From: Nitrospina sp.
Lineage (GTDB): Bacteria > Nitrospinota > Nitrospinia > Nitrospinales > VA-1
Reading direction: 5' to 3'
Assembly: GCA_002721515.1 (NCBI GenBank)
Contig: PBKP01000026.1
Location: forward strand, 4,944 to 39,140
Length of the DNA stretch: 34,197 nt
In this document: in pieces, positions 4,895 to 32,440 of the stretch
Position numbering within the stretch: the first letter of the stretch is position 1
Layout of the letters: each line of letters starts with the position of its first letter
Notes under the pieces: model-generated
Told to the model about the DNA's origin: nothing
Database searches by the model: none
What the model saw: only the letters and a program-made list of their open reading frames with translations
Translations under genes and position numbers: made by a program

Positions 4895-5635
4895 TTAGTA
4901 TGTAGAATTTTGCTGAGAAGTATGACATTTAAATTCTGTTTCTGATTTCCATTCAACTTTTAGATAATTCGGTAAAAGAGTATTTTTGTCGATTAGAGCG
5001 GAGTCAATTTGTTCTGCAGTCAAGCCAATCGCATATCTTAAATTAGCCCCTTTTAAGTCAGCTCCTTCTAAGTTAGAGTTTTTTAGAACTGATCTGCTTA
5101 AATTTGCTGCTTGTAGACCTGCTCCTTTCAAGTCAGTTCCTTCCATTCTAGCTCCAGATAGATCCGCCCCTTCCAATTTAGCACTGCAGAATTTTGATTC
5201 CTGCATTTGTGATTGTGCTCCCTTAATATTTTGTAGGTTAGCTCCACTAAAATCAGAATTTTTCATCCATGATTTAAACATGGAGCATTGGCGTAAATTT
5301 GATTTGGTAAGGTTAGCATTACTTAAATTTGCACCCCTTAAATCTGCCGCCCTAGCGTAAAGTTGGTGCATATTAGCACCCTTTAAATTTGCTTTATTCA
5401 AATCTGCGGAATTTAAGTTGGCTTCCTCTAGATTGGCTTCAGTAAGATTAGCCTTTGAAAGTTGAGCATCACCTAAAAAAATTTTATTCATATTTGCACC
5501 ATGCAGGTTAGCTCCTCCTAGAAGGGCACCTTTTAAATCAGCACCAGCAAGGTCTGCACCTTTTAGATCTGCATTTTGGAGATATTTTTTCGATGACTCC
5601 AGTTTTTCTTTTAGAGGTAGTGATTCTTTCGACAT
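4895..5635 (-). CDS. Pentapeptide-repeat protein (246 aa), coupled to a membrane-protein gene
   Basis: After a short charged N-terminus (MSKESLPLKEKLESSKKY) the protein is almost entirely A(D/N)LKGA-type pentapeptides from about residue 20 to 205, a right-handed beta-helix. The tail, with GLTAEQIDSALIDKNTLLPNY and then VEWKSETEFKC, is the same module as in the pentapeptide protein at 1776-2609. The start at 5635 is set by a TAATG overlap, where the stop of the upstream membrane-protein gene shares its last A with this ATG. The longer open frame to 5788 would overlap that gene by 150 bases and is rejected. The overlap implies translational coupling. Function is unknown. Confidence 0.88.
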   Translation of the reverse strand: MSKESLPLKEKLESSKKYLQNADLKGADLAGADLKGALLGGANLHGANMNKIFLGDAQLSKANLTEANLEEANLNSADLNKANLKGANMHQLYARAADLRGANLSNANLTKSNLRQCSMFKSWMKNSDFSGANLQNIKGAQSQMQESKFCSAKLEGADLSGARMEGTDLKGAGLQAANLSRSVLKNSNLEGADLKGANLRYAIGLTAEQIDSALIDKNTLLPNYLKVEWKSETEFKCHTSQQNSTY

Positions 5636-6174
5636 TAAATTTTCTTTAGCTGATAAAATCTTAAAAATAGTGCAATGAAAAAAATAACAGATGCTGAAAA
5701 TGCTATGGATATCCCTGGAACTATTAATGCAAGCGTAATTGGGATAGATTCTAAAAACCAAAGAATTAGTTTTTGCATTCCAAACCATGATTCAGGACTA
5801 ATTATCCACTGTTGTAGTGCTGTGTTTTCAAATAAGAAGTTAAAGATTGCTAGCAAAGGATATTCTATCCAAACCCCTGTTTGCAACCATAATAGCGATT
5901 GATAACTTAAAAGACCCATTCCAGTTATCATAAATATAATGCCCAATAGACCGGCAATGATATTTATTCCAGCAAAAAAGAAATCCATTACTGAAAGTTT
6001 TGAGGCAAAGGGTCCGATTTCATTCCATATTTCAAAAAATCCTCTCTTAATCTGTATTTTTATTGCCTGAGTAAATCCTATAAAAATATGTTGAGCTGTT
6101 TTAATATATTGAAAAAGTCGACTTATCCACTCTTCATAATTAAATTGGGATTTTTGATTGCTTTTGATATTCAT
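5635..6174 (-). CDS. Membrane protein of unknown function
   Basis: This 179-residue protein has three to four hydrophobic stretches: about residues 65-95 (probably one to two helices), a shorter one near 100-115, and a long one at about 140-172 ending in LKKI. An excellent GGAGG ribosome-binding site lies six bases before the ATG. Its stop overlaps the start of the pentapeptide-repeat gene (TAATG), so the two products are made in fixed proportion and may act together at the membrane. I do not recognise the family. Confidence 0.72.
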   Translation of the reverse strand: MNIKSNQKSQFNYEEWISRLFQYIKTAQHIFIGFTQAIKIQIKRGFFEIWNEIGPFASKLSVMDFFFAGINIIAGLLGIIFMITGMGLLSYQSLLWLQTGVWIEYPLLAIFNFLFENTALQQWIISPESWFGMQKLILWFLESIPITLALIVPGISIAFSASVIFFIALFLRFYQLKKI

Positions 6175-14968: not shown

Positions 14969-16417
14969 TTAAATAGCTTGATGATTAGCTATTTCAATTT
15001 TTGCATCTTTCATAACTTCGATGGCAGATTTTAATATTAAACCAGAAATACTTATTCCAACAACCAGATCAGGCCAGGGTGAATTTGTCCATGCCACTCC
15101 CACAGCAGCCAGCAACACCCCAAGATTTGCTAATACATCGTTGCGTGAACAGAGCCAAGCTGACCGCATATTAACATCAGTATCTCTGAAACCTAATAAC
15201 ATTAATGCGCAAACCAAGTTGGCAGCGAGTGCCAGGAAACCAACAACACCCATTGTGGTTATCTGTGGAATTATAGGGTTAAAGGCTCGATAAAAGGCAC
15301 TTGTTAAAACTCCTATAGCAAAAATGGCCATGATGATTCCCTTTATATATCCCGCCCGGCTTTGCCAAATCGTGTTGAGTCCAATAACATAAAGTGAAAA
15401 ACCAAAAATAGCGGCATCACCCAACATGTCTAAGGCATCAGCCATCAACGCATTCGATTGTGCGAACCAACCGTATATAGCCTCAATAAAAAACATGCCG
15501 GTATTGATTATTAAAACCCAAACAAGGATATTGCGTTTTTTATCTTGAACCTTGGTCAATTCTTTTTCAAGGCTAGAGCAACAATCATTGATGCTTAAAC
15601 TTTGTTTTTTTATTTGATTCAAAATGAGGGAAATTAAATAAAAACTTCCTGCGAGAAGAATTATGGTTGGACCCGGTGGTAGATCAGGTTGATATGATAT
15701 TGCTAAACCACTTGTAGTAAACACCACTCCAATTATCGATGCTAATATCATCATTAAATTTAAGGATCGAACGTAGAGACCCGCGATCGCAGCCGGGAGT
15801 GTCAATAAGGCAATGACTAAAATTAAACCTACAATTTGAATTAATATGACAACAGTGAGAGCTACTAGAGAAAGAAATAGTAGATAAAAACGCTCTACTG
15901 GAATGCCTCGAAGTCTTGCAAACTCTTCATCAAAAGAGACGGCTATGAACTGTTTGTAAAATAGAAAAACTATTGTTAGGATGAGCAGATCTAGACCTAC
16001 TATCCAATAAAGATCTTCCGCGGCGATCATCAATATATTTCCAAATAAAAAGCTCATCAGTTCAACGTTGTATCCGGGTGTTTTTGAAATGAATAAAATT
16101 CCAACTGCCATGCCGCCTGCCCATAACGCTCCTATTATGGTGTCTTCTTGTTGCTGCATTCGCAAACTAACCCATCCTAGAATAAAAGCAAAAACCAAGG
16201 CTGAAACTAAAGCTCCCTCAATGGGTGAACGACCTAAGTAATAAGCAATTCCCATTCCTCCTAAAACAGCATGTGCAATGCCTCCTGCCAGATAGCCGAT
16301 TCTCTTGACCACAACATAAGAACCAATGGCACCACAAGCTATACTGGCTAATATTCCTCCAGCAATAGCGTTTTGCATAAATGGTTGCGAGGTGGCAGCT
16401 TCAAGAAAGGAGTTCAA
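14969..16417 (-). CDS. Zinc/manganese-type ABC permease fused to a CDF cation-efflux domain
   Basis: Residues 1 to about 265 are an ABC-3 (ZnuB-like) permease: PFMQNAIAGGILASIACG, GGIAHAVLGG, and ILIQIVGLILVIALLTLPAA. A short linker holding a CC pair (near 277) leads to about 200 residues of the cation diffusion facilitator fold. The CDF metal-site residues are visible as D330-x3-D334 in ADALDMLGD and C423-x3-D427 in CSRND; Cys replaces the usual His, a known variant of this subgroup. The CDF part ends without the usual cytoplasmic tail. The frame is uninterrupted. TTG at 16417 is the start because it overlaps the znuC stop (TTGA). ZnuB imports metal; CDF proteins usually export it, so the fusion is unexpected. 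Confidence 0.88.
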   Translation of the reverse strand: MNSFLEAATSQPFMQNAIAGGILASIACGAIGSYVVVKRIGYLAGGIAHAVLGGMGIAYYLGRSPIEGALVSALVFAFILGWVSLRMQQQEDTIIGALWAGGMAVGILFISKTPGYNVELMSFLFGNILMIAAEDLYWIVGLDLLILTIVFLFYKQFIAVSFDEEFARLRGIPVERFYLLFLSLVALTVVILIQIVGLILVIALLTLPAAIAGLYVRSLNLMMILASIIGVVFTTSGLAISYQPDLPPGPTIILLAGSFYLISLILNQIKKQSLSINDCCSSLEKELTKVQDKKRNILVWVLIINTGMFFIEAIYGWFAQSNALMADALDMLGDAAIFGFSLYVIGLNTIWQSRAGYIKGIIMAIFAIGVLTSAFYRAFNPIIPQITTMGVVGFLALAANLVCALMLLGFRDTDVNMRSAWLCSRNDVLANLGVLLAAVGVAWTNSPWPDLVVGISISGLILKSAIEVMKDAKIEIANHQAI

Positions 16418-17163
16418 TGTCGATTTTCTCCTTCATGGTGGTGATGTACCATATGCACGTGCGTGCCATAAAGCTCTTCTATGGTTTCTCCAGTAAGTTC
16501 TGAAGTGGGATGACATATAAGGTTTCGATTGAGGCAAGCTACCTTAGTTATGTATTTTGAAATGAAACCGATATCGTGAGTCACAACAATGATAGTAATT
16601 TTTTCGTTTAATTTTTTTAGTAGATCAAAAATGTCTTTTTCAACTTTCATGTCGACATTTGCAGTGGGCTCATCAAGAATCATGATCTCAGGATTGCAGG
16701 TTAAAGCGCGGGCAATCAACACGCGTTGTAATTGTCCTCCCGAAAGTGAACCGATAGAACGTTTTTTTAAATCGAGAATTTCCACTGCTTCCATCGATTT
16801 TGCTGCAAGCCCTTTATCTTCTTTACTAAAGAGTCCGATCCTAGATGTTTTTCCAAGTCGTCCCATAAGCACCGTTTCTTCAACACTTATAGGAAAATCT
16901 CTAGAGAAAGGCGTGAGTTGTGGCATATAGCCAATATTCTTTACTGCTTGATTCGCAGGTTTACTTAATACTTCCACCGAGCCTTTATCAGGATCTAAAA
17001 GTCCAAGGATAATTTTTAGTAGTGTTGTTTTGCCACTACCATTTGGCCCAACCATGCCTACGAATTCTTTAGCTTCAATATCTAGTTGAATGTCTTCGAG
17101 AATAGGAGGTCCACCATAACTGAAATGGAGATCGCGGATTTTAATGATGGGATTTTCGGTCAA
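16414..17163 (-). CDS. znuC: Zinc/manganese-type ABC transporter ATPase (ZnuC-like)
   Basis: The ATPase powers metal import through the adjacent permease at the cytoplasmic face of the membrane. Walker A is GPNGSGKTT (near 39-47), the ABC signature is LSGGQLQRV, and Walker B with the D-loop is IMILDEPTANVD. The switch His is in VVTHDIG. The C-terminus carries a His-rich tail (HVHMVHHHHEG), typical of ZnuC-type ATPases and suggestive of zinc sensing. The start overlaps the znuA stop by ATGA, and its own stop overlaps the next start, so all three are translationally coupled. Confidence 0.93.
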   Translation of the reverse strand: MTENPIIKIRDLHFSYGGPPILEDIQLDIEAKEFVGMVGPNGSGKTTLLKIILGLLDPDKGSVEVLSKPANQAVKNIGYMPQLTPFSRDFPISVEETVLMGRLGKTSRIGLFSKEDKGLAAKSMEAVEILDLKKRSIGSLSGGQLQRVLIARALTCNPEIMILDEPTANVDMKVEKDIFDLLKKLNEKITIIVVTHDIGFISKYITKVACLNRNLICHPTSELTGETIEELYGTHVHMVHHHHEGENRH

Positions 17164-18032
17164 TGATTTGCTCCTGAAATTGCTTTTGCCGTTTGGCGCA
17201 TATTTTCGAAGTAATTCTCTGAAAGTGGGTCTATTTCTTGTACGGTGGCACCAATCATTTTAGCGATTTTTTGCGCTATCAAAAGACCAAATTGTTTTTG
17301 AACGAAAATAACCCTTATTTTCAGTTTTTTTGCCTGGGTGACTATTTTCTGTAGTGCTCTGGGTCCTGGTTCTTTGCCCTGATGTTCAATAGCAATTTGT
17401 TCTAGACCATAAGTGTCCGCGAAATAAGACCAGGCCGGATGAAATACCATAAAGCTACGAGTATTTTTTGCAGCTATAATATCTCGGATTTCGCTATGCA
17501 AAGCCTCCAAGTCTTTGGCAAGAGCCGTATAATTCTTTTTAAAAAACTCTGCTTTTTGAGGACTCTCCCTTGATAAAGCATCTTTGATTTTTATAGCCAT
17601 AATTTTTGCAAGGGGTGGGCTGGTCCAAATATGCGGATCGCTTTTTTCATGGAAAGATTTCTTTGAGCCTTGGTGCCCCGATGGCATGATCAATGGCAAA
17701 TTATTATTTAATGGAACTAATTTTAGGCTAGGCTGAATGGCTTTAATCCTAGAAAGCCAGATTTTTTCAAACGGAACGCCAATACTGAAATACAAACTTG
17801 TATTGGTCAGTCTACTCATTTTTTTAGGATTTGGATTAAATGTTGCTGGACTTTCACCTGCCTTGACCATTACATGAACATTAACTTCATCGCCTCCTAT
17901 ACGTTCTACGAAATATTTTTGCGGAATAATGCTAACAAAAACTGAGATCGGTTTAGCCCATCCATTATCGGGGCAATAAAATATTTGTATCAGAGCAATT
18001 AAAATTATGTTCTTATTTAAAAAATTTTTCAT
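17160..18032 (-). CDS. znuA: Metal-binding periplasmic protein of the importer (ZnuA-like)
   Basis: A signal peptide (about residues 1-26, ending NGWA) precedes a cluster A-I solute-binding protein. Metal ligands expected in this family are seen at DPHIW (His near 132), the MVFHPAWSYFADTYGL segment (His near 197) and the Asp in EIDPLSENYFENM. The first His, usually in a PHxFEP motif, is replaced: here the motif is ESPATFNPNP. A variant with SPAT at this site exists in the family, so the protein need not be dead, but metal choice may differ from classical ZnuA. A His-rich loop, MPSGHQGSKKSFHEKS, precedes the second ligand. It is the first gene of the three-gene operon. A TATAAT on the minus strand at 18101-18106 could be its -10. 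Confidence 0.9.
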   Translation of the reverse strand: MKNFLNKNIILIALIQIFYCPDNGWAKPISVFVSIIPQKYFVERIGGDEVNVHVMVKAGESPATFNPNPKKMSRLTNTSLYFSIGVPFEKIWLSRIKAIQPSLKLVPLNNNLPLIMPSGHQGSKKSFHEKSDPHIWTSPPLAKIMAIKIKDALSRESPQKAEFFKKNYTALAKDLEALHSEIRDIIAAKNTRSFMVFHPAWSYFADTYGLEQIAIEHQGKEPGPRALQKIVTQAKKLKIRVIFVQKQFGLLIAQKIAKMIGATVQEIDPLSENYFENMRQTAKAISGANH

Positions 18033-26530: not shown

Positions 26531-28402
26531 TTAGTTAAAATTATAAACAAAACCGGCATATACATTTCTTCCCGCTACGCTAAAACCACCAACCTCTGTA
26601 TAGTCTTGGTCAAGAAGATTCTCTGCCCTTAAAGTAAGTTTAATTTTTTTACTATATTGATAACTAAAAGCAGTCCGAACTGTAACGAAACCTTCGGTGG
26701 AATTGGTGGCGTTAAAACCTCTGGCAAAACCTCTAGCAAAAATACCTGCAATTGATTCAAGTTTATTGTTCCACCTGTGAGTCAGATTGGCAATCAACTT
26801 TTGTTTTGGACGGCGTGTTCCTGGTTGATTGTGGTCAGATTTTGATTTTTCATCTAAGTAGTGATCGTTCCAGGTATGTCGTATGGATAGAGCAAGATTA
26901 TAGGGTAACTCGAGATCAACTTCTGTTTCGATACCCTGAGAGTAAAACTTCCCAAAGTTTGTTGTAACAAAGGTGCTAGGATGAGACTGAATAAAATTGG
27001 TAGTTAATGATTTAAAGTATGTGATTCCAACCGTTATCTTATCATTCATAAGGCCTTGCCTGACTCCTACTTCAAAACTTTGAGTTTCCTCCGATTTTAA
27101 ATTGGGGTTTGAGTTATAGTCATTAAAGGTGGGTGCTCTAAAACCCTTAGAATATGCTGTATGAAGTTGTGTGTTGGTTTTTAAAAAATTACGTCCTGCT
27201 TCAAACTTATAGGTAGTTACTTCACCAAATATTGAATTGATATCATGTCGAAATCCCCCCGTTAACGTCAAAATATTATTATAATCATAGATACCTTGAA
27301 GGAAGTACGCATTATTGTCAGTGAATTTTTGATAAGCTGAGACAAAATCAGAAAACAAACTATCGGCAGTTCCTTCTTGGCGTTCATACTCACCTCCCCA
27401 AAGTACTGAAAAGTAAGGATGCACTTTCATGTTATTCTCTAAATAAAAGGTATATTGGCGATTAATAAAATGATCGTTTTCCGAGGTATCAATTGTAGCT
27501 GCTTCTTGAAAGTTCATGTTTGGATTTATTTTAAAACTCCACCAGTCGCTAAATTTAGTCTTAAACACTGCGGACAAATAAAAATCGTCGATGGTATTAG
27601 AATTTCTATTATCTGTTCCGCTTCCTTGACCATTGACACTATCTAACTCATCATGTGACTTTGTGTAACGCGTGCTCAACTCAATTTGAGAATCATCATT
27701 AATTTCATAACCAATTTTAGAAATAAAAGTTTTATTTGTATACCTATCTTCTTCTATTCCACCACTAGCCTTATTAAGAGCTGAAATTCCAGAGGTTTTG
27801 AGCAAAGATGCAGATAAGGAATAATCAAACTTATTTATAGAACCTGAACTACGAATTGATTGCTTAGTTGTATTATATGAGCCCCCTTCAAAAGATAGAG
27901 AGTGCTTGGGCGCACCTTTTCCTTTTTTTGTTACGATATTAATGGTTCCACCTACGGCATCACCACCCCACTGAATACTCTGCGGGCCTCTAAGAACCTC
28001 TATTTTTTCTATATTGTCCAGAGTTAGATCACCAAAGTCGTATAGACCTGCAGTATTTGAGTTGACGCGGACACCGTCAATGACGACCAATGTCGATTTT
28101 GATCCTTGTCCTCGCATAAAAATACTGGTTTGTTGACCTTGCCCACCACTTTGCACAACATCCAAACCCAACTCTCCTCGAAGTAAATCTTCTACCGTTT
28201 GGTGCTGTTTTGTTTCAATTTCTTGTTCGTTAAATATAGTTAGAGATCCTGGAAAATTTTTAGTAGTTAATGTGTCACGAGAGGATGTTACTTTGATTAC
28301 TTCTAATTCTTCAATTTCAGCGGCGAATAGGTTCTGTGCGAAAGGTAGGATAAAAAAACTAAAAATAAACAACAGGGCTAAAATAAATTTAATCGTTTTC
28401 AC
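26531..28402 (-). CDS. btuB: TonB-dependent outer-membrane receptor, B12 type (BtuB)
   Basis: BtuB takes up cobalamin across the outer membrane using TonB energy. A signal peptide (about residues 1-28) is followed by a TonB-box-like EVIKVTSS near 35, the plug domain with VEDLLRGELGLDVVQSGG and LRGPQSIQWGGDAVGGTINI, and a long barrel. It ends in YAGFVYNFN; the last residue is Asn rather than the usual Phe. The 623-residue length is normal. The start is GTG, 6 bases after a GAGGGAG ribosome-binding site that ends a cobalamin riboswitch. The riboswitch and neighbouring cobO, btuF, btuD and btuC make corrinoid the likely substrate. Confidence 0.92.
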   Translation of the reverse strand: MKTIKFILALLFIFSFFILPFAQNLFAAEIEELEVIKVTSSRDTLTTKNFPGSLTIFNEQEIETKQHQTVEDLLRGELGLDVVQSGGQGQQTSIFMRGQGSKSTLVVIDGVRVNSNTAGLYDFGDLTLDNIEKIEVLRGPQSIQWGGDAVGGTINIVTKKGKGAPKHSLSFEGGSYNTTKQSIRSSGSINKFDYSLSASLLKTSGISALNKASGGIEEDRYTNKTFISKIGYEINDDSQIELSTRYTKSHDELDSVNGQGSGTDNRNSNTIDDFYLSAVFKTKFSDWWSFKINPNMNFQEAATIDTSENDHFINRQYTFYLENNMKVHPYFSVLWGGEYERQEGTADSLFSDFVSAYQKFTDNNAYFLQGIYDYNNILTLTGGFRHDINSIFGEVTTYKFEAGRNFLKTNTQLHTAYSKGFRAPTFNDYNSNPNLKSEETQSFEVGVRQGLMNDKITVGITYFKSLTTNFIQSHPSTFVTTNFGKFYSQGIETEVDLELPYNLALSIRHTWNDHYLDEKSKSDHNQPGTRRPKQKLIANLTHRWNNKLESIAGIFARGFARGFNATNSTEGFVTVRTAFSYQYSKKIKLTLRAENLLDQDYTEVGGFSVAGRNVYAGFVYNFN

Positions 28403-28423
28403 TTGCTTCTCCCTCGAGATAAA

Positions 28424-28562
28424 TATCCGGCAGGTCTCCTGACTCAGGACTATCTACATTCGTGCCTTCCCATCAACTAAGATAGTGGCATTAAACGAAT
28501 TTCGTATCCATTACAGTTGCGGGGCAGTGTTGGAATTAAACCAAGCTTCCCTTAACCGGACT
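28424..28562 (-). ncRNA. Cobalamin riboswitch upstream of btuB
   Basis: On the minus strand the element begins with CCGG TTAAGGGAA, carries the conserved GCCCCGCAACTGTAA core and GATGGGAAGGC, and ends with GTCAGGAGACCTGCC followed by CCGG. These are the signature blocks of the AdoCbl-type B12 box. The first and last CCGG close the P1 stem. TCTCGAGGGAGA follows within 15 bases; it contains the ribosome-binding site of btuB, so control is probably at translation initiation. It is about 85 percent or more similar by eye to the second copy at 29436-29580. Confidence 0.95.
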
Positions 28563-28580
28563 TAGTATAAAAATTAAATA

Positions 28581-28607
28581 ATTATAACTTGCTACCTATA
28601 CTTGAAA
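28581..28607 (-). promoter_or_regulatory. Possible promoter of the btuB transcript
   Basis: On the minus strand TTTCAA (28602-28607) and TATAAT (28581-28586) are 15 bases apart, shorter than ideal, and end about 20 bases before the riboswitch. It lies just after the cobO stop codon, so btuB may have its own transcript rather than depend on cobO. Confidence 0.4.
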
Positions 28608-28620
28608 TAGATTTCTATTT

Positions 28621-29178
28621 CTAAAATTCAATTCCTTTTTGTGCGGGGATACCTTGTTCCGCAAAAGGATGTTTGATCATTTTCATTTCTGTAACTAGAT
28701 CGGCCATCTCAATCAACTTCTCTGACGCGTTTCTTCCGGTACATACAACATGGGTCATTTCTGGTTTATTTTTTATGGTTTCTAACACTTCATCTTCTGG
28801 GAGAAATTTGTAATCAAGAACGTAATTAATTTCCTCAAAAATAACCATTTCAAAATTACCAGAGTTTAATTTTTCTTTTACTACCTCAAAAGCTTTTCGG
28901 GCGGTTGCCTTGTCTTGTTCGATATTTTCGGTGTCCCAGGTAAATCCGTCTCCCATGGGAACAATTTCGACATAAGGAGACAAACTCTCAAATGATTTTC
29001 TTTCTCCTGCTTTCCAGGGTCCTTTCATAAACTGCATGATAAAAACATTCATTTTATTTCCAGCTGCCCGCATGGCAAGGCCAAAAGCTGCAGTTGATTT
29101 TCCTTTCCCATCGCCTGTATGGACGATAATAAGACCTTTTCTTTTTCTAGGATCAACTTTAGCAGGCTGTTTTCTCAT
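28621..29178 (-). CDS. cobO: Cob(I)yrinic acid a,c-diamide adenosyltransferase (CobO/BtuR)
   Basis: The enzyme attaches the adenosyl group to reduced corrinoids, making the coenzyme form. The P-loop IVHTGDGKGKSTAAFGLAMR lies near residues 18-37, followed by FIMQFMKGPWKAGERKSF, FEEINYVLDYKFL and CTGRNASEKLIEMADLVTEM, all typical of the BtuR/CobA/CobO family. At 185 residues it is full length. No other corrin-ring synthesis gene is present, so it probably serves salvage of imported corrinoid. It follows the riboswitch-led small ORF by about 100 bases, with a 10-bp palindrome between. Confidence 0.93.
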   Translation of the reverse strand: MRKQPAKVDPRKRKGLIIVHTGDGKGKSTAAFGLAMRAAGNKMNVFIMQFMKGPWKAGERKSFESLSPYVEIVPMGDGFTWDTENIEQDKATARKAFEVVKEKLNSGNFEMVIFEEINYVLDYKFLPEDEVLETIKNKPEMTHVVCTGRNASEKLIEMADLVTEMKMIKHPFAEQGIPAQKGIEF

Positions 29179-29226
29179 GATTTACCTGGCAAATGACTAT
29201 TTGTTTAAATAAATAATCTCATTAGG

Positions 29227-29250
29227 ATTATTCTTACGCATAAGAATAAT
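29227..29250. repeat. Perfect 10-bp inverted repeat upstream of cobO
   Basis: ATTATTCTTA (29227-29236) and TAAGAATAAT (29241-29250) flank CGCA. On the minus strand no T-run follows, so it is not a standard terminator. It lies between the small-ORF stop (29275) and the cobO start (29178). It may be an operator for a dimeric repressor or an RNA stem that protects or divides the transcript. Confidence 0.5.
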
Positions 29251-29274
29251 TAATTTTACCTCACAATATTTTTG

Positions 29275-29418
29275 TTAACACTTAACTCGTTCAGATTTAT
29301 TGGACTTATTGTCTTTTGGTGAAAAGGGAAAGAAACTTTGGTTTTTGCTGGTGTGATTAGGCAGGCTTTCAACTGGACCTAATTTGAAAGATAGCGCAGT
29401 ATCTACAATAGCACCCAT
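29275..29418 (-). CDS. 47-residue small ORF directly after a cobalamin riboswitch
   Basis: The ORF starts at ATG 29418 and ends at TAA. It has a GAGGGAG ribosome-binding site in the same position relative to the riboswitch as btuB has, and five more bases to the ATG, which is the main reason to believe in it. The peptide begins MGAIVDTALSFKLGPVES, is Ser, Asn and Lys rich in its second half, and ends in KC. It has no signal peptide, membrane segment or family I recognise, including CbtB. Alternatives are a leader peptide, or a remnant of a gene once driven by this riboswitch. cobO starts about 95 bases further on. Confidence 0.55.
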   Translation of the reverse strand: MGAIVDTALSFKLGPVESLPNHTSKNQSFFPFSPKDNKSNKSERVKC

Positions 29419-29435
29419 TTTTTCTCCCTCGAGAT

Positions 29436-29580
29436 AATTTTCCGGTAGGTCTCCTGACTCAGGGCTATCTAATTTTCGCGCCTTCCCATCTAATAAGACA
29501 GTGGCATACAGCGAATTTCGTACCCAATACAGTTGCGGGGCAGTGCTGGAATTAAACCAAGCTTCCCTTAACCGAAAATT
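29436..29580 (-). ncRNA. Cobalamin riboswitch upstream of the small ORF and cobO
   Basis: On the minus strand the B12-box blocks are all present: GTTAAGGGAA, GCCCCGCAACTGTA, GATGGGAAGGC and GTCAGGAGACCTACC. P1 is long here: AATTTTCGGT pairs with ACCGGAAAATT with one bulge. The riboswitch ends with the same TCTCGAGGGAGA module as the btuB copy, placing a ribosome-binding site directly after P1. It follows btuC by about 125 bases and has its own promoter, so it is not the leader of btuFDC. Confidence 0.95.
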
Positions 29581-29592
29581 TTTGAAAATTAG

Positions 29593-29620
29593 ATTATAAT
29601 TACTTTAGAAATCTAATCAA
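29593..29620 (-). promoter_or_regulatory. Likely promoter of the riboswitch/small-ORF/cobO transcript
   Basis: On the minus strand TTGATT (29615-29620) and TATAAT (29593-29598) are 16 bases apart. Transcription would begin about seven bases later, a few bases before P1 of the riboswitch. Hexamers, spacing and distance all fit a sigma-70-type promoter. Confidence 0.6.
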
Positions 29621-29706
29621 CTGTTCTTTTATATATCAAAATCGCTCTTGAGAGAAGAAAAATTTTACTTATAACTGCGAATAAAAGAATAAAGTCCTTT
29701 GATTTT

Positions 29707-30711
29707 CTATAAAGGTCTCTTTCGTTTTAATAGCCAGACAAAAAATGGTCCACCTAACATAGCGGTAATAATGCCTACAGGAATCTCAGTTGGTGCTAAA
29801 AGAGTTCTCGCGAATGTATCGCAAATGACTAGAAAACTAGCACCAAATAAGGTAGATGCTGGAATCAGTATTCTAAGGTCTGGACCAACAAATAATCTCA
29901 CAATATGAGGAACAATCAATCCTACAAAACCTATAGGACCGCAGGTCGCTACCACGGTTCCAGTGATCAGAGATGCCGTGATAAATCCAATTTTTTGTGT
30001 TTTTTCAACATTTACACCGCGACTGGAAGCAGAATGAATTCCTGTGCTAATTAAATTTAAATCCCTGCTCACAAATAACAAGATTAATATTCCAATTGAA
30101 ACAATCGGAAATAAAGTAAGAATTGTGTCGTAATTAGTGATATCCAATCCACCCATTAGCCAGCGTATAATTGTGAATGACTGGCTCAAGCTTGCTAAAT
30201 AATGGATAAACATAACTAGTGAAGCGAAAAAGAAATTAGCTGTTACACCCGCTAAAAGCAATATCCCTGTAGGAAACTCTCCATGTCTGGTACGAACTAG
30301 ATTGAAAACCAGTAAAATAGCACCAAGTGAACCCATGAATGCAAACAAGGAAATAACCGGAAAACCTAGGAGGGTAAAATTTAAATTCAACGCAATTGCA
30401 ATAACAGCTCCCAATGCCGCGCCACTTGAAACACCCAGGGTAAAAGGAGCAGCCAGATCATTTCTCAATAAAGCCTGTAAAACAGCTCCTGCTACTGATA
30501 AAGCAGCACCTGCGATAGCTCCAAGAAGAATTCTGGGTAGTCTTACCTGAAATAAAATACTGGCATCGATATTGTTAGAATTGTTTAGAGTCGTTGAAAA
30601 GGCGCGTGTCAGACTGATATCCGTGGAGCCTATAAGCGGGGCAATTAAAAGGGTTGCCAATAAGACCAAAAAAAATACTGAAAGTGTCTTTATATAGGAC
30701 ATTATTTTCAT
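29707..30711 (-). CDS. btuC: Corrinoid-type ABC transporter permease (BtuC/FecCD family)
   Basis: The 334-residue protein has the ten-helix FecCD layout, with RLPRILLGAIAGAALSVAGAVLQALLRNDLA near residues 55-85 split by helix boundaries, the GVSSGAALGA segment, CGPIGFVGLIVPHIVR near 255-270, and a closing ARTLLAPTEIPVGIITAMLGGPFF. These are hallmark motifs of siderophore/B12 permeases. The gene is 11 bases after btuD. Iron-siderophore systems share this fold, but cobO, btuB and two B12 riboswitches next door make corrinoid the likely cargo. Confidence 0.9.
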   Translation of the reverse strand: MKIMSYIKTLSVFFLVLLATLLIAPLIGSTDISLTRAFSTTLNNSNNIDASILFQVRLPRILLGAIAGAALSVAGAVLQALLRNDLAAPFTLGVSSGAALGAVIAIALNLNFTLLGFPVISLFAFMGSLGAILLVFNLVRTRHGEFPTGILLLAGVTANFFFASLVMFIHYLASLSQSFTIIRWLMGGLDITNYDTILTLFPIVSIGILILLFVSRDLNLISTGIHSASSRGVNVEKTQKIGFITASLITGTVVATCGPIGFVGLIVPHIVRLFVGPDLRILIPASTLFGASFLVICDTFARTLLAPTEIPVGIITAMLGGPFFVWLLKRKRPL

Positions 30712-30722
30712 ATAGAAATATC

Positions 30723-31505
30723 CTATTTGCCGATCGTAGGGTGGATCAGGGTGTGACCATTTTTAGAATAGAGATCCAGTTCTATCCCATAAACCTCCTC
30801 AAGAATGTCTTTTTGAAGCACCTTTAGGGGAGTACCATCGCTAACAATTTTTCCATCGTTTAAAAGAATAATTCGATTGCAAAACCGAGAGGCAAGGTTT
30901 AAATCATGCATGGCCACGACCAGTGTCATTTTATGGTTTGTATTGAGATCTTTGAGAATGCTCATTATTTCAATTTGATATTTTAAATCCAATGCTGAGG
31001 TAGGTTCATCGAGAAGTAATAATTCCGGATTCTGTGCCAGGGCACTGGCAATCATTACACGTTGTTTTTCCCCTTCACTGATTTCATTAAAAAGTCGGTC
31101 GGAAAAATGGGAAGTCATGGTTGTTTGCATGGCACGTTGGCTGATTTTGAAATCCTCGTGACTTTCAAACGATAAAGGAGAAAGATAAGGATGGCGTCCC
31201 ATCAAAACAACTTCAGAAACCTTAAAAGGGAAAACCATCGGATGACCTTGAGGGATCCAGGAAACCGATTGGGCAAAATTCTTTTTGTTGATATTCCTAG
31301 TTTCGGATCCTTTGAACTTTATGCTGCCCGAATCTGGTTTAATAATCGCACTCATTACTTTTAACAGTGTTGATTTTCCTGAGCCATTAGGTCCTATTAG
31401 CCCAATAAAATCATTCTCCTGAATAAAAACTGATAAATCATTTAGAACAGGCTTAATGTTGTAGGTAAAAGAAATATTTTCTAACTCCATTTTTAAAGGT
31501 GTCAT
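30723..31505 (-). CDS. btuD: Corrinoid-type ABC transporter ATPase (BtuD-like)
   Basis: The ATPase drives corrinoid import by BtuC. Walker A is GPNGSGKST (near 37-45), the signature is ISEGEKQRV (a variant of LSGGQ), Walker B is LLLLDEPTSALD, and the switch His is in VVAMHDLNLA. At 260 residues it is normal for the FecE/BtuD group. The start overlaps the btuF stop by ATGA, so btuF and btuD are coupled. Confidence 0.92.
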   Translation of the reverse strand: MTPLKMELENISFTYNIKPVLNDLSVFIQENDFIGLIGPNGSGKSTLLKVMSAIIKPDSGSIKFKGSETRNINKKNFAQSVSWIPQGHPMVFPFKVSEVVLMGRHPYLSPLSFESHEDFKISQRAMQTTMTSHFSDRLFNEISEGEKQRVMIASALAQNPELLLLDEPTSALDLKYQIEIMSILKDLNTNHKMTLVVAMHDLNLASRFCNRIILLNDGKIVSDGTPLKVLQKDILEEVYGIELDLYSKNGHTLIHPTIGK

Positions 31506-32440
31506 GGTTTTGCAGTACCTGGAGGTGGTGTTTGTTTAATTAGTGGAACCGACAAATCTGTATGAATTACTTTTGCAAAACTTTCTAAAATTTTCACCAG
31601 ACGTGGTCCGGGAATTAATATATAATCTGCGCCAATAAAATGGATCCTTTTATTTTTGACTGCTTGGATTGTGGGAAAACGATTCCATTGTTCAACTCTA
31701 TAATCTATTTTTTTTTGAGATAAATTGGACTTTGGTCCTGCCTCTATAATGATCTCGGGTGATTGTTCAATAATATATTCTTTCGATAGCTTGGGATATT
31801 GGGCTTTTGAGTTTGTTAAAATATTCTTTCCGCCGGAAAGCACAAGTAATTCATTTAAAAATGTTCCAGGGCCTACCGCATATAAATCGCGACCAGGATT
31901 ACTGCTGTCGCCAAGAAGCAACAAAACTTTTTTTTTTGGTCGTCCCATAAGCCCTAGTTTGTAGTTATTGATTTTATTTTTTAAAAACGATAGAAGATTT
32001 TTGGCGGTCTTCTGACAATTGAGCTCTTTACCCAGGCGATTAATCGATTCAAAAATATCTGATATTGTTCGGACATTAATTGATAATGTTGGAATACCAA
32101 GGCTTTTAAAATTATTTTTCATCTTTTCACTATCTGTTTGCTGAATTATCAGATCAGGAGTAAGAGATATTATTGTTTCTATATCAGGGTTTAACACTCC
32201 CCCAATACTAGGCAAAAGACAAGCTTCTTCTGGGTAAGAACAAAAGTCTGTTACGGCTACAATGCGCTCTTTTAGTCCTAGCTCGAAAAGTATTTCCGTA
32301 ATAGAAGGCGAAGTTGAAATTATTCTTTGAGGCTGATGCTTAAATCTACTGCTTGCCTCCAAGGAATTTAAAAAGCCTGAATATAAGGAAACTAGGAAAA
32401 CAAATGAAGTGAAAAAATATTTAATAAAAATTTTATTCAT
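31502..32440 (-). CDS. btuF: Periplasmic corrinoid-binding protein (BtuF-like)
   Basis: A signal peptide (about residues 1-30, with LEASS at its end) precedes a two-lobe cluster A-II binding protein. Family features are RIISTSPSITEILFELGL, VTDFCSYPEEA, ETIISLTPDLII, SLGIPTLSI, and EQSPEIIIEAG. BtuF delivers corrinoid to BtuCD. The length of 312 residues is normal. No riboswitch precedes it; its start is 12 bases after the esterase gene, so the importer may depend on an upstream promoter beyond the window. Confidence 0.9.
   Translation of the reverse strand: MNKIFIKYFFTSFVFLVSLYSGFLNSLEASSRFKHQPQRIISTSPSITEILFELGLKERIVAVTDFCSYPEEACLLPSIGGVLNPDIETIISLTPDLIIQQTDSEKMKNNFKSLGIPTLSINVRTISDIFESINRLGKELNCQKTAKNLLSFLKNKINNYKLGLMGRPKKKVLLLLGDSSNPGRDLYAVGPGTFLNELLVLSGGKNILTNSKAQYPKLSKEYIIEQSPEIIIEAGPKSNLSQKKIDYRVEQWNRFPTIQAVKNKRIHFIGADYILIPGPRLVKILESFAKVIHTDLSVPLIKQTPPPGTAKP

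Follow-up and report, generated by a model that had tools for sequence, protein, structure and literature searches.

A ZnuB-type importer permease and a cation diffusion facilitator domain joined in one gene of a Nitrospinaceae genus

The third gene of a znuA-znuC-znuB operon in the window (the whole 34,197-nt stretch of Nitrospina sp. DNA that was analysed) encodes an ABC-3 importer permease followed, in the same frame, by a transmembrane domain of the cation diffusion facilitator (CDF) family. We regard it as close to certain that this fusion is real and that it is made as one chain. It arose once and fairly recently, when operon neighbours were joined in frame in the ancestor of one genus of Nitrospinaceae, a genus of uncultured marine nitrite-oxidising bacteria. 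Both domains are of known kinds, and their combination is new within a limited search: as the earlier note had supposed, no protein with this domain pair was found in the papers searched, the PDB or 72,556 plasmid records, and none of the plasmid records had both halves in one place. With respect to function we favour, at a probability of about 0.4, a role in which the CDF half would trim excess or wrong metal that the importer lets in during zinc starvation. The features are collected in Table 1. The open reading frame had been placed correctly in the earlier note, which omitted its strand; this is the minus strand, the plus strand at 14969-16417 being full of stops. The TTG start of the fused gene overlaps the stop of the ATPase gene by 4 nt, and its own genome (a 70% complete assembly of 51 contigs) has one copy.

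Table 1. Coordinates of the fused gene, its parts and operon partners in the window, and of candidate Zur boxes in the single-contig genome G037
Feature	Sequence	Position	Strand	Remarks
Fused znuB-CDF gene	window	14969..16417	minus	482 aa, TTG start; same frame in six assemblies
ABC-3 permease domain, residues 12-266	window	15620..16384	minus	PF00950 E 2.5e-79
Junction/linker, residues 267-290, K/R-rich	window	15548..15619	minus	where the sister genus has the znuB stop and CDF start, now lost
CDF (Cation_efflux) transmembrane domain, residues 301-472, six helices	window	15002..15517	minus	PF01545 E 2.1e-16
A-site half 1, TM2, D330 and D334	window	15416..15430	minus	aligns with HD/DD pair of other CDFs
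A-site half 2, TM5, C423 and D427, CxRND motif	window	15137..15151	minus	Cys replaces usual His
znuC, importer ATPase	window	16414..17163	minus	PF00005 E 5.8e-32
znuA, periplasmic metal-binding protein	window	17160..18032	minus	PF01297 E 2.5e-62
Candidate Zur box	G037	157513		upstream of znuA
Candidate Zur box	G037	2579273/2579325		~3 kb before zinc cluster starting near 2582 kb
Candidate Zur box	G037	3153419		between divergent ZIP and CDF genes
Candidate Zur box	G037	3156878		adjoins TonB-receptor cluster
Candidate Zur box	G037	3593951		

The permease half spans positions 3-257 of the 258 in PF00950 (266.9 bits, cut-off 20.1), matches PsaC of S. pneumoniae in sequence (E 6.9e-40) and matches the PsaC 7kyp fold with a TM-score to the target of 0.83-0.86, about 0.84. 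It thus has the whole domain of ZnuB, PsaC and AztB permeases by both sequence and fold, with a cognate ATPase and a ZnuA-type protein encoded next to it, and is a member of the ABC-3 (ZnuB-type) family. Unlike these permeases, the fused protein has a second transporter domain of ~200 aa at its C-terminus. The scores of the permease half lie under the AztB, ZnuB and SloB cut-offs (best equivalog AztB, 191 vs 280), so that the family does not settle which metal is transported; the neighbouring ATPase is AztA-like (170 bits, under the equivalog cut-off) and the binding protein AztC-like (117 bits, also under the cut-off). The second half covers positions 4-193 of the 198 in PF01545 (60.7 bits, cut-off 26.6), scores 82.0 against TIGR01297, narrowly under the cut-off of 82.35, and matches the transmembrane domains of the CDFs YiiP and ZnT in fold (TM-score to the YiiP 8f6h target 0.59). 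With the whole PF01545 domain and a six-helix CDF fold (helices 282-319, 322-344, 349-379, 386-408, 415-444 and 448-481 in the AlphaFold model), it belongs to the CDF family. The two domains in one frame, and the positions of the CC pair (279/280), DxxxD (330/334) and CxxxD (423/427), were thus read correctly in the earlier note; the CC pair, at positions 15578-15583, lies inside the linker.

Like the canonical CDFs YiiP, ZitB and ZnT (PF01545), the CDF half has the six-helix transmembrane fold and the quartet positions in TM2 and TM5; unlike them it has no C-terminal domain, the protein stopping ~10 residues after the CDF domain. A cytoplasmic C-terminal domain is common in CDFs and not universal, and its absence is not decisive; it is likewise missing in the stand-alone relatives and in CdfX of Cupriavidus metallidurans. 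The AlphaFold model of the fused protein, built on a 57-sequence alignment, had a pLDDT of 85 and a pTM of 0.56, with two confident helical domains and low confidence only around residues 276-283. It is consistent with two normal folds joined by a short flexible linker. The pTM is moderate, and the model therefore does not predict how the two are placed relative to each other. A fold search of the PDB gave no good match covering both halves, and one of a viral fold library gave no useful match. Since the loop between the domains carries seven K/R, the positive-inside rule makes it probable that the linker is cytoplasmic; the N-terminus of CDFs sits on the cytoplasmic side.

The same fused frame was found in five further genomes of the genus at 81-85% identity (Nitrospinaceae/Nitrospinota MAG records JAJDAV010000045, CALJGH010000008, JAJDBA010000337, CAJWOD010000051 and WAIB01000018), which brings the total to six independent assemblies. 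The six proteins align over 482 columns, one having 481 aa and the others 482, with no frame shift. An artefact of assembly or sequencing at the A-rich junction could draw on the run of 10-11 A present there in four of the six genomes. Two of the six, the window among them, are without a long run (7 A in the window, an interrupted run in the other), and the frame is common to all; because it is shared despite differing A runs, homopolymer error cannot explain the fusion. In addition, both alternative frames stop close to the junction in the window. We therefore rejected the sequencing-error reading and consider an artefact extremely improbable; the earlier note had thought a frameshift that fuses two genes unlikely and had asked that an error at 15560-15620 be excluded. 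In four relatives (L052, L053, L032 and L033; compare 7 A in the window, 15560-15622), slippage at the run of 10-11 A could give some unfused permease. A split of the fusion in three other genomes of the genus was also considered and rejected: znuA is missing there too, so that the region is absent from those assemblies, not split. A contig of G006 begins inside the neighbour gene of the window.

A contig search with the fused protein returned close relatives only, and when the same domain order was looked for among 77 Nitrospinota genomes it was present in six genomes of one genus and in none elsewhere; nor was any other ABC-3 gene fused to a CDF seen among them. A long ABC-3 frame in G045 (578 codons) was considered as a second fusion and dropped, its best local BLAST match being ZnuB only, with no CDF. 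In the sister genus (13 genomes) znuA-znuC-znuB is followed by a separate CDF gene of ~205 codons in another frame, which starts 1 nt past the znuB stop or overlaps it by 4 nt; the CDF gene is absent from one sister-genus genome, G021. The earlier note would have counted relatives that always encode the domains apart, with a stop between them, against the fusion. Sister-genus relatives do encode them apart, and they show the arrangement from which the fusion arose; they are no sign of an error. The fused genes have lost the znuB stop, and the spacing at the junction has become a multiple of three. The N-terminus M-S-D-C-C of the separate CDF corresponds to I-N-D-C-C, V-T-D-C-C, L-S-D-C-C, I-G-S-C-C, M-G-S-C-C and T-T-D-C-C in the fused proteins, and the former start codon now reads ATC, GTC, CTG, ATT, ATG or ACC, a decay that makes separate initiation unlikely in most of the six genomes. 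Most separate CDF starts are preceded by a purine-rich GGAAAAGGG-like stretch, a putative ribosome site; the fused genes have A-rich sequence in its place. In trees of each half the fused proteins group together as a single clade, and the closest branch to the fused CDFs is that of the sister genus (100/99, 94/89).

Both halves are under strong purifying selection: median dN/dS (Nei-Gojobori) was ~0.03 for the permease, ~0.06 for the CDF and ~0.25 for the linker, values that give the sense of constraint only, dS being near saturation (most pairwise dS >1). Some relatives have a further znuA-znuB pair immediately before the znuA-znuC-znuB operon, with no ATPase gene of its own beside it (L052:6120-7866 and L040:8323-10065).

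The metal site sets this CDF and its relatives apart. All 16 small Nitrospinota CDFs in alignment A1 carry the quartet D-D-C-D (D330/D334/C423/D427 in the fused protein), as does one of three plasmid relatives, the other two having D-D-F-D; H-D-H-D is the quartet of two full-length CDFs from the same phylum. Zinc carriers such as YiiP, ZitB and ZnT have DD-HD or HD-HD quartets; in the clade the positions are conserved and the quartet is DD-CD. In YiiP the proton moves through a His (PMC5703985), and this residue is Cys throughout the clade. With that His replaced, the standard proton-coupled export, which the earlier note gave as usual for CDFs, cannot be assumed here. Small CDFs of this kind are common on plasmids as 'cation transporter' genes, with cadR, RND efflux and other genes as neighbours. 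The same CDF clade also occurs fused to MerC in a single genome, G044 (L044:6047-7138; PF03203 E 1.9e-20 and PF01545 E 3e-18); here too it stands behind a metal-uptake membrane protein, the partner being MerC and not an ABC permease.

In related genera the clade CDF lies among genes for ZIP, a TonB receptor, COG0523/CobW, a Fur-family regulator, FolE2, PRA-CH, ALAD, an amidohydrolase and MerC. ZIP, TonB receptor, COG0523, FolE2 and similar genes are typical of Zur regulons. The palindrome TTTGCAAnnnnTTTGCAAA, a TTTGCAA-type box derived from the zinc clusters, recurs in them, is found at the CDF and znuA promoters of relatives, and may well bind Zur. When the single-contig genome G037 was scanned for the box with at most one mismatch, three of the five places were at zinc genes (Table 1). 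The genome of the window itself has a zinc-starvation-type cluster (L126:1-5000, G000:C11) with a Fur-family gene, a NifU_N scaffold, MerC and a TonB receptor, and with two such boxes. The candidate Zur box is paired there and elsewhere, with starts 51-53 bp apart (L126:1071/1123, L051:3353/3406, L130:55/108, L133:1501/1553 and L152:1501/1552). Upstream of the window operon no Zur-like box beyond chance was found, and a general palindrome scan upstream of znuA yielded nothing shared. The position of the relatives in zinc-starvation clusters suggests that the clade CDF belongs to conditions of zinc acquisition, not of metal resistance. Zur can also activate exporters, as with zitB in Streptomyces (PMC5472717) and through czcR in Pseudomonas (PMC9827704), and the starvation context alone therefore cannot tell whether the CDF serves export or uptake. 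An HNHD...DC..C motif marks small proteins, apparently secreted, that adjoin zinc-uptake genes at L052:4206-4900, L051:4627-4932, L054:7994-8302 and other places; the one scanned had no Pfam match.

In the role that we favour, the fused product would dimerise as ZnuB usually does, associate with two ZnuC and receive zinc from ZnuA. The permease dimer would pair two CDF domains, so that each importer would carry a dimeric CDF at 1:1, with the tether on the cytoplasmic side. During zinc starvation the importer would run at full rate; the CDF domain would return excess zinc to the outside, as when zinc is suddenly resupplied, and would also expel wrong metals (Co, Ni, Cd, Mn) admitted by starvation-induced importers, and this import-linked trimming would keep a flow equilibrium. 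Such a role would fit the retention of all A-site ligands, the constraint on both halves, the two folds that are intact in the model and the place of clade members in zinc-starvation clusters. It would also fit by analogy with the nearest characterised type of protein, CdfX, a CDF without cytoplasmic domain that is a zinc exporter and influences the zinc flow equilibrium (PMC11580412). Against it, the proton His of YiiP is Cys, and the domain may export weakly, with another coupling or not at all; to make an exporter together with an importer when zinc is short would be a waste if the exporter were neither gated nor metal-selective; and the window operon is without an upstream Zur-like box.

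The two halves could instead do independent jobs, the link being a covalent tether only, which arose as a near-neutral fusion of operon neighbours by stop loss and a small indel, with harmless 1:1 translation. This is possible, and on balance we think it rather unlikely. It would suit the ancestral arrangement, in which the genes were adjacent (1-nt gap or 4-nt overlap) and their proteins were probably already made together, as well as the low constraint on the linker, the least constrained part, and the restriction to one genus among the 77 Nitrospinota genomes. Yet the fusion persists in every one of the six divergent genomes with this locus, and the decayed CDF start indicates that the fused form is stable. 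A CDF domain that assists zinc uptake, for example by facilitating inward flow or by taking over metal from the permease, would agree with the starvation clusters and their Zur-like boxes, with the second fusion to an uptake-type protein, MerC, and with the missing proton-coupling His. We consider it doubtful, however, as we know of no CDF established as a cellular zinc importer. Moreover, CdfX exports zinc, and a Zur box is no proof of uptake when Zur also activates exporters such as zitB and czcR.

A wider proposal of the same kind, which we hold to be quite doubtful, is that the whole DD-CD clade serves zinc acquisition, perhaps by running inward or by receiving metal directly from an importer; having been fused at least twice to uptake proteins (ZnuB and MerC), it would then give a coupled ABC/secondary transporter in one chain. 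Very unlikely, in our estimate, is a CDF half that no longer transports and acts as a regulator or sensor, a metal-binding brake on ZnuB; the earlier note had suggested a sensor, besides a safety valve and a movement of metal between membrane faces. The tether that joins it to the permease, which is probably cytoplasmic, would allow this, and the unusual A-site and lost coupling His could mean lost transport. However, the four A-site positions and the full six-helix domain are kept, as in stand-alone relatives, which cannot regulate intramolecularly, and the metal-sensing cytoplasmic domain of many CDFs is absent.

Among known systems CdfX is the closest in its described properties, the fused CDF half likewise being without a dimerisation or cytoplasmic domain; CdfX is, however, a separate protein under ZntR control at metal excess, whereas the CDF half described here is joined to an importer. 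If the halves cooperate, ATP-driven import and a domain of an export family would be present in one polypeptide, and the flow equilibrium of uptake and efflux would become testable in a single protein. If they are merely tethered, the gene is still a clean case of operon neighbours turned into one gene. The clade also calls into question the habit of assigning CDFs to metal excess, given its relatives in zinc-starvation clusters. Marine bacteria of these lineages live in zinc-poor water. Elsewhere in the window, the translations point to a vitamin B12-like uptake group at 26531-32440 (a TonB receptor, a corrinoid adenosyltransferase-like protein, a FecCD permease, an ATPase and a binding protein) and to two pentapeptide-repeat-like proteins at 1776-2609 and 4895-5788.
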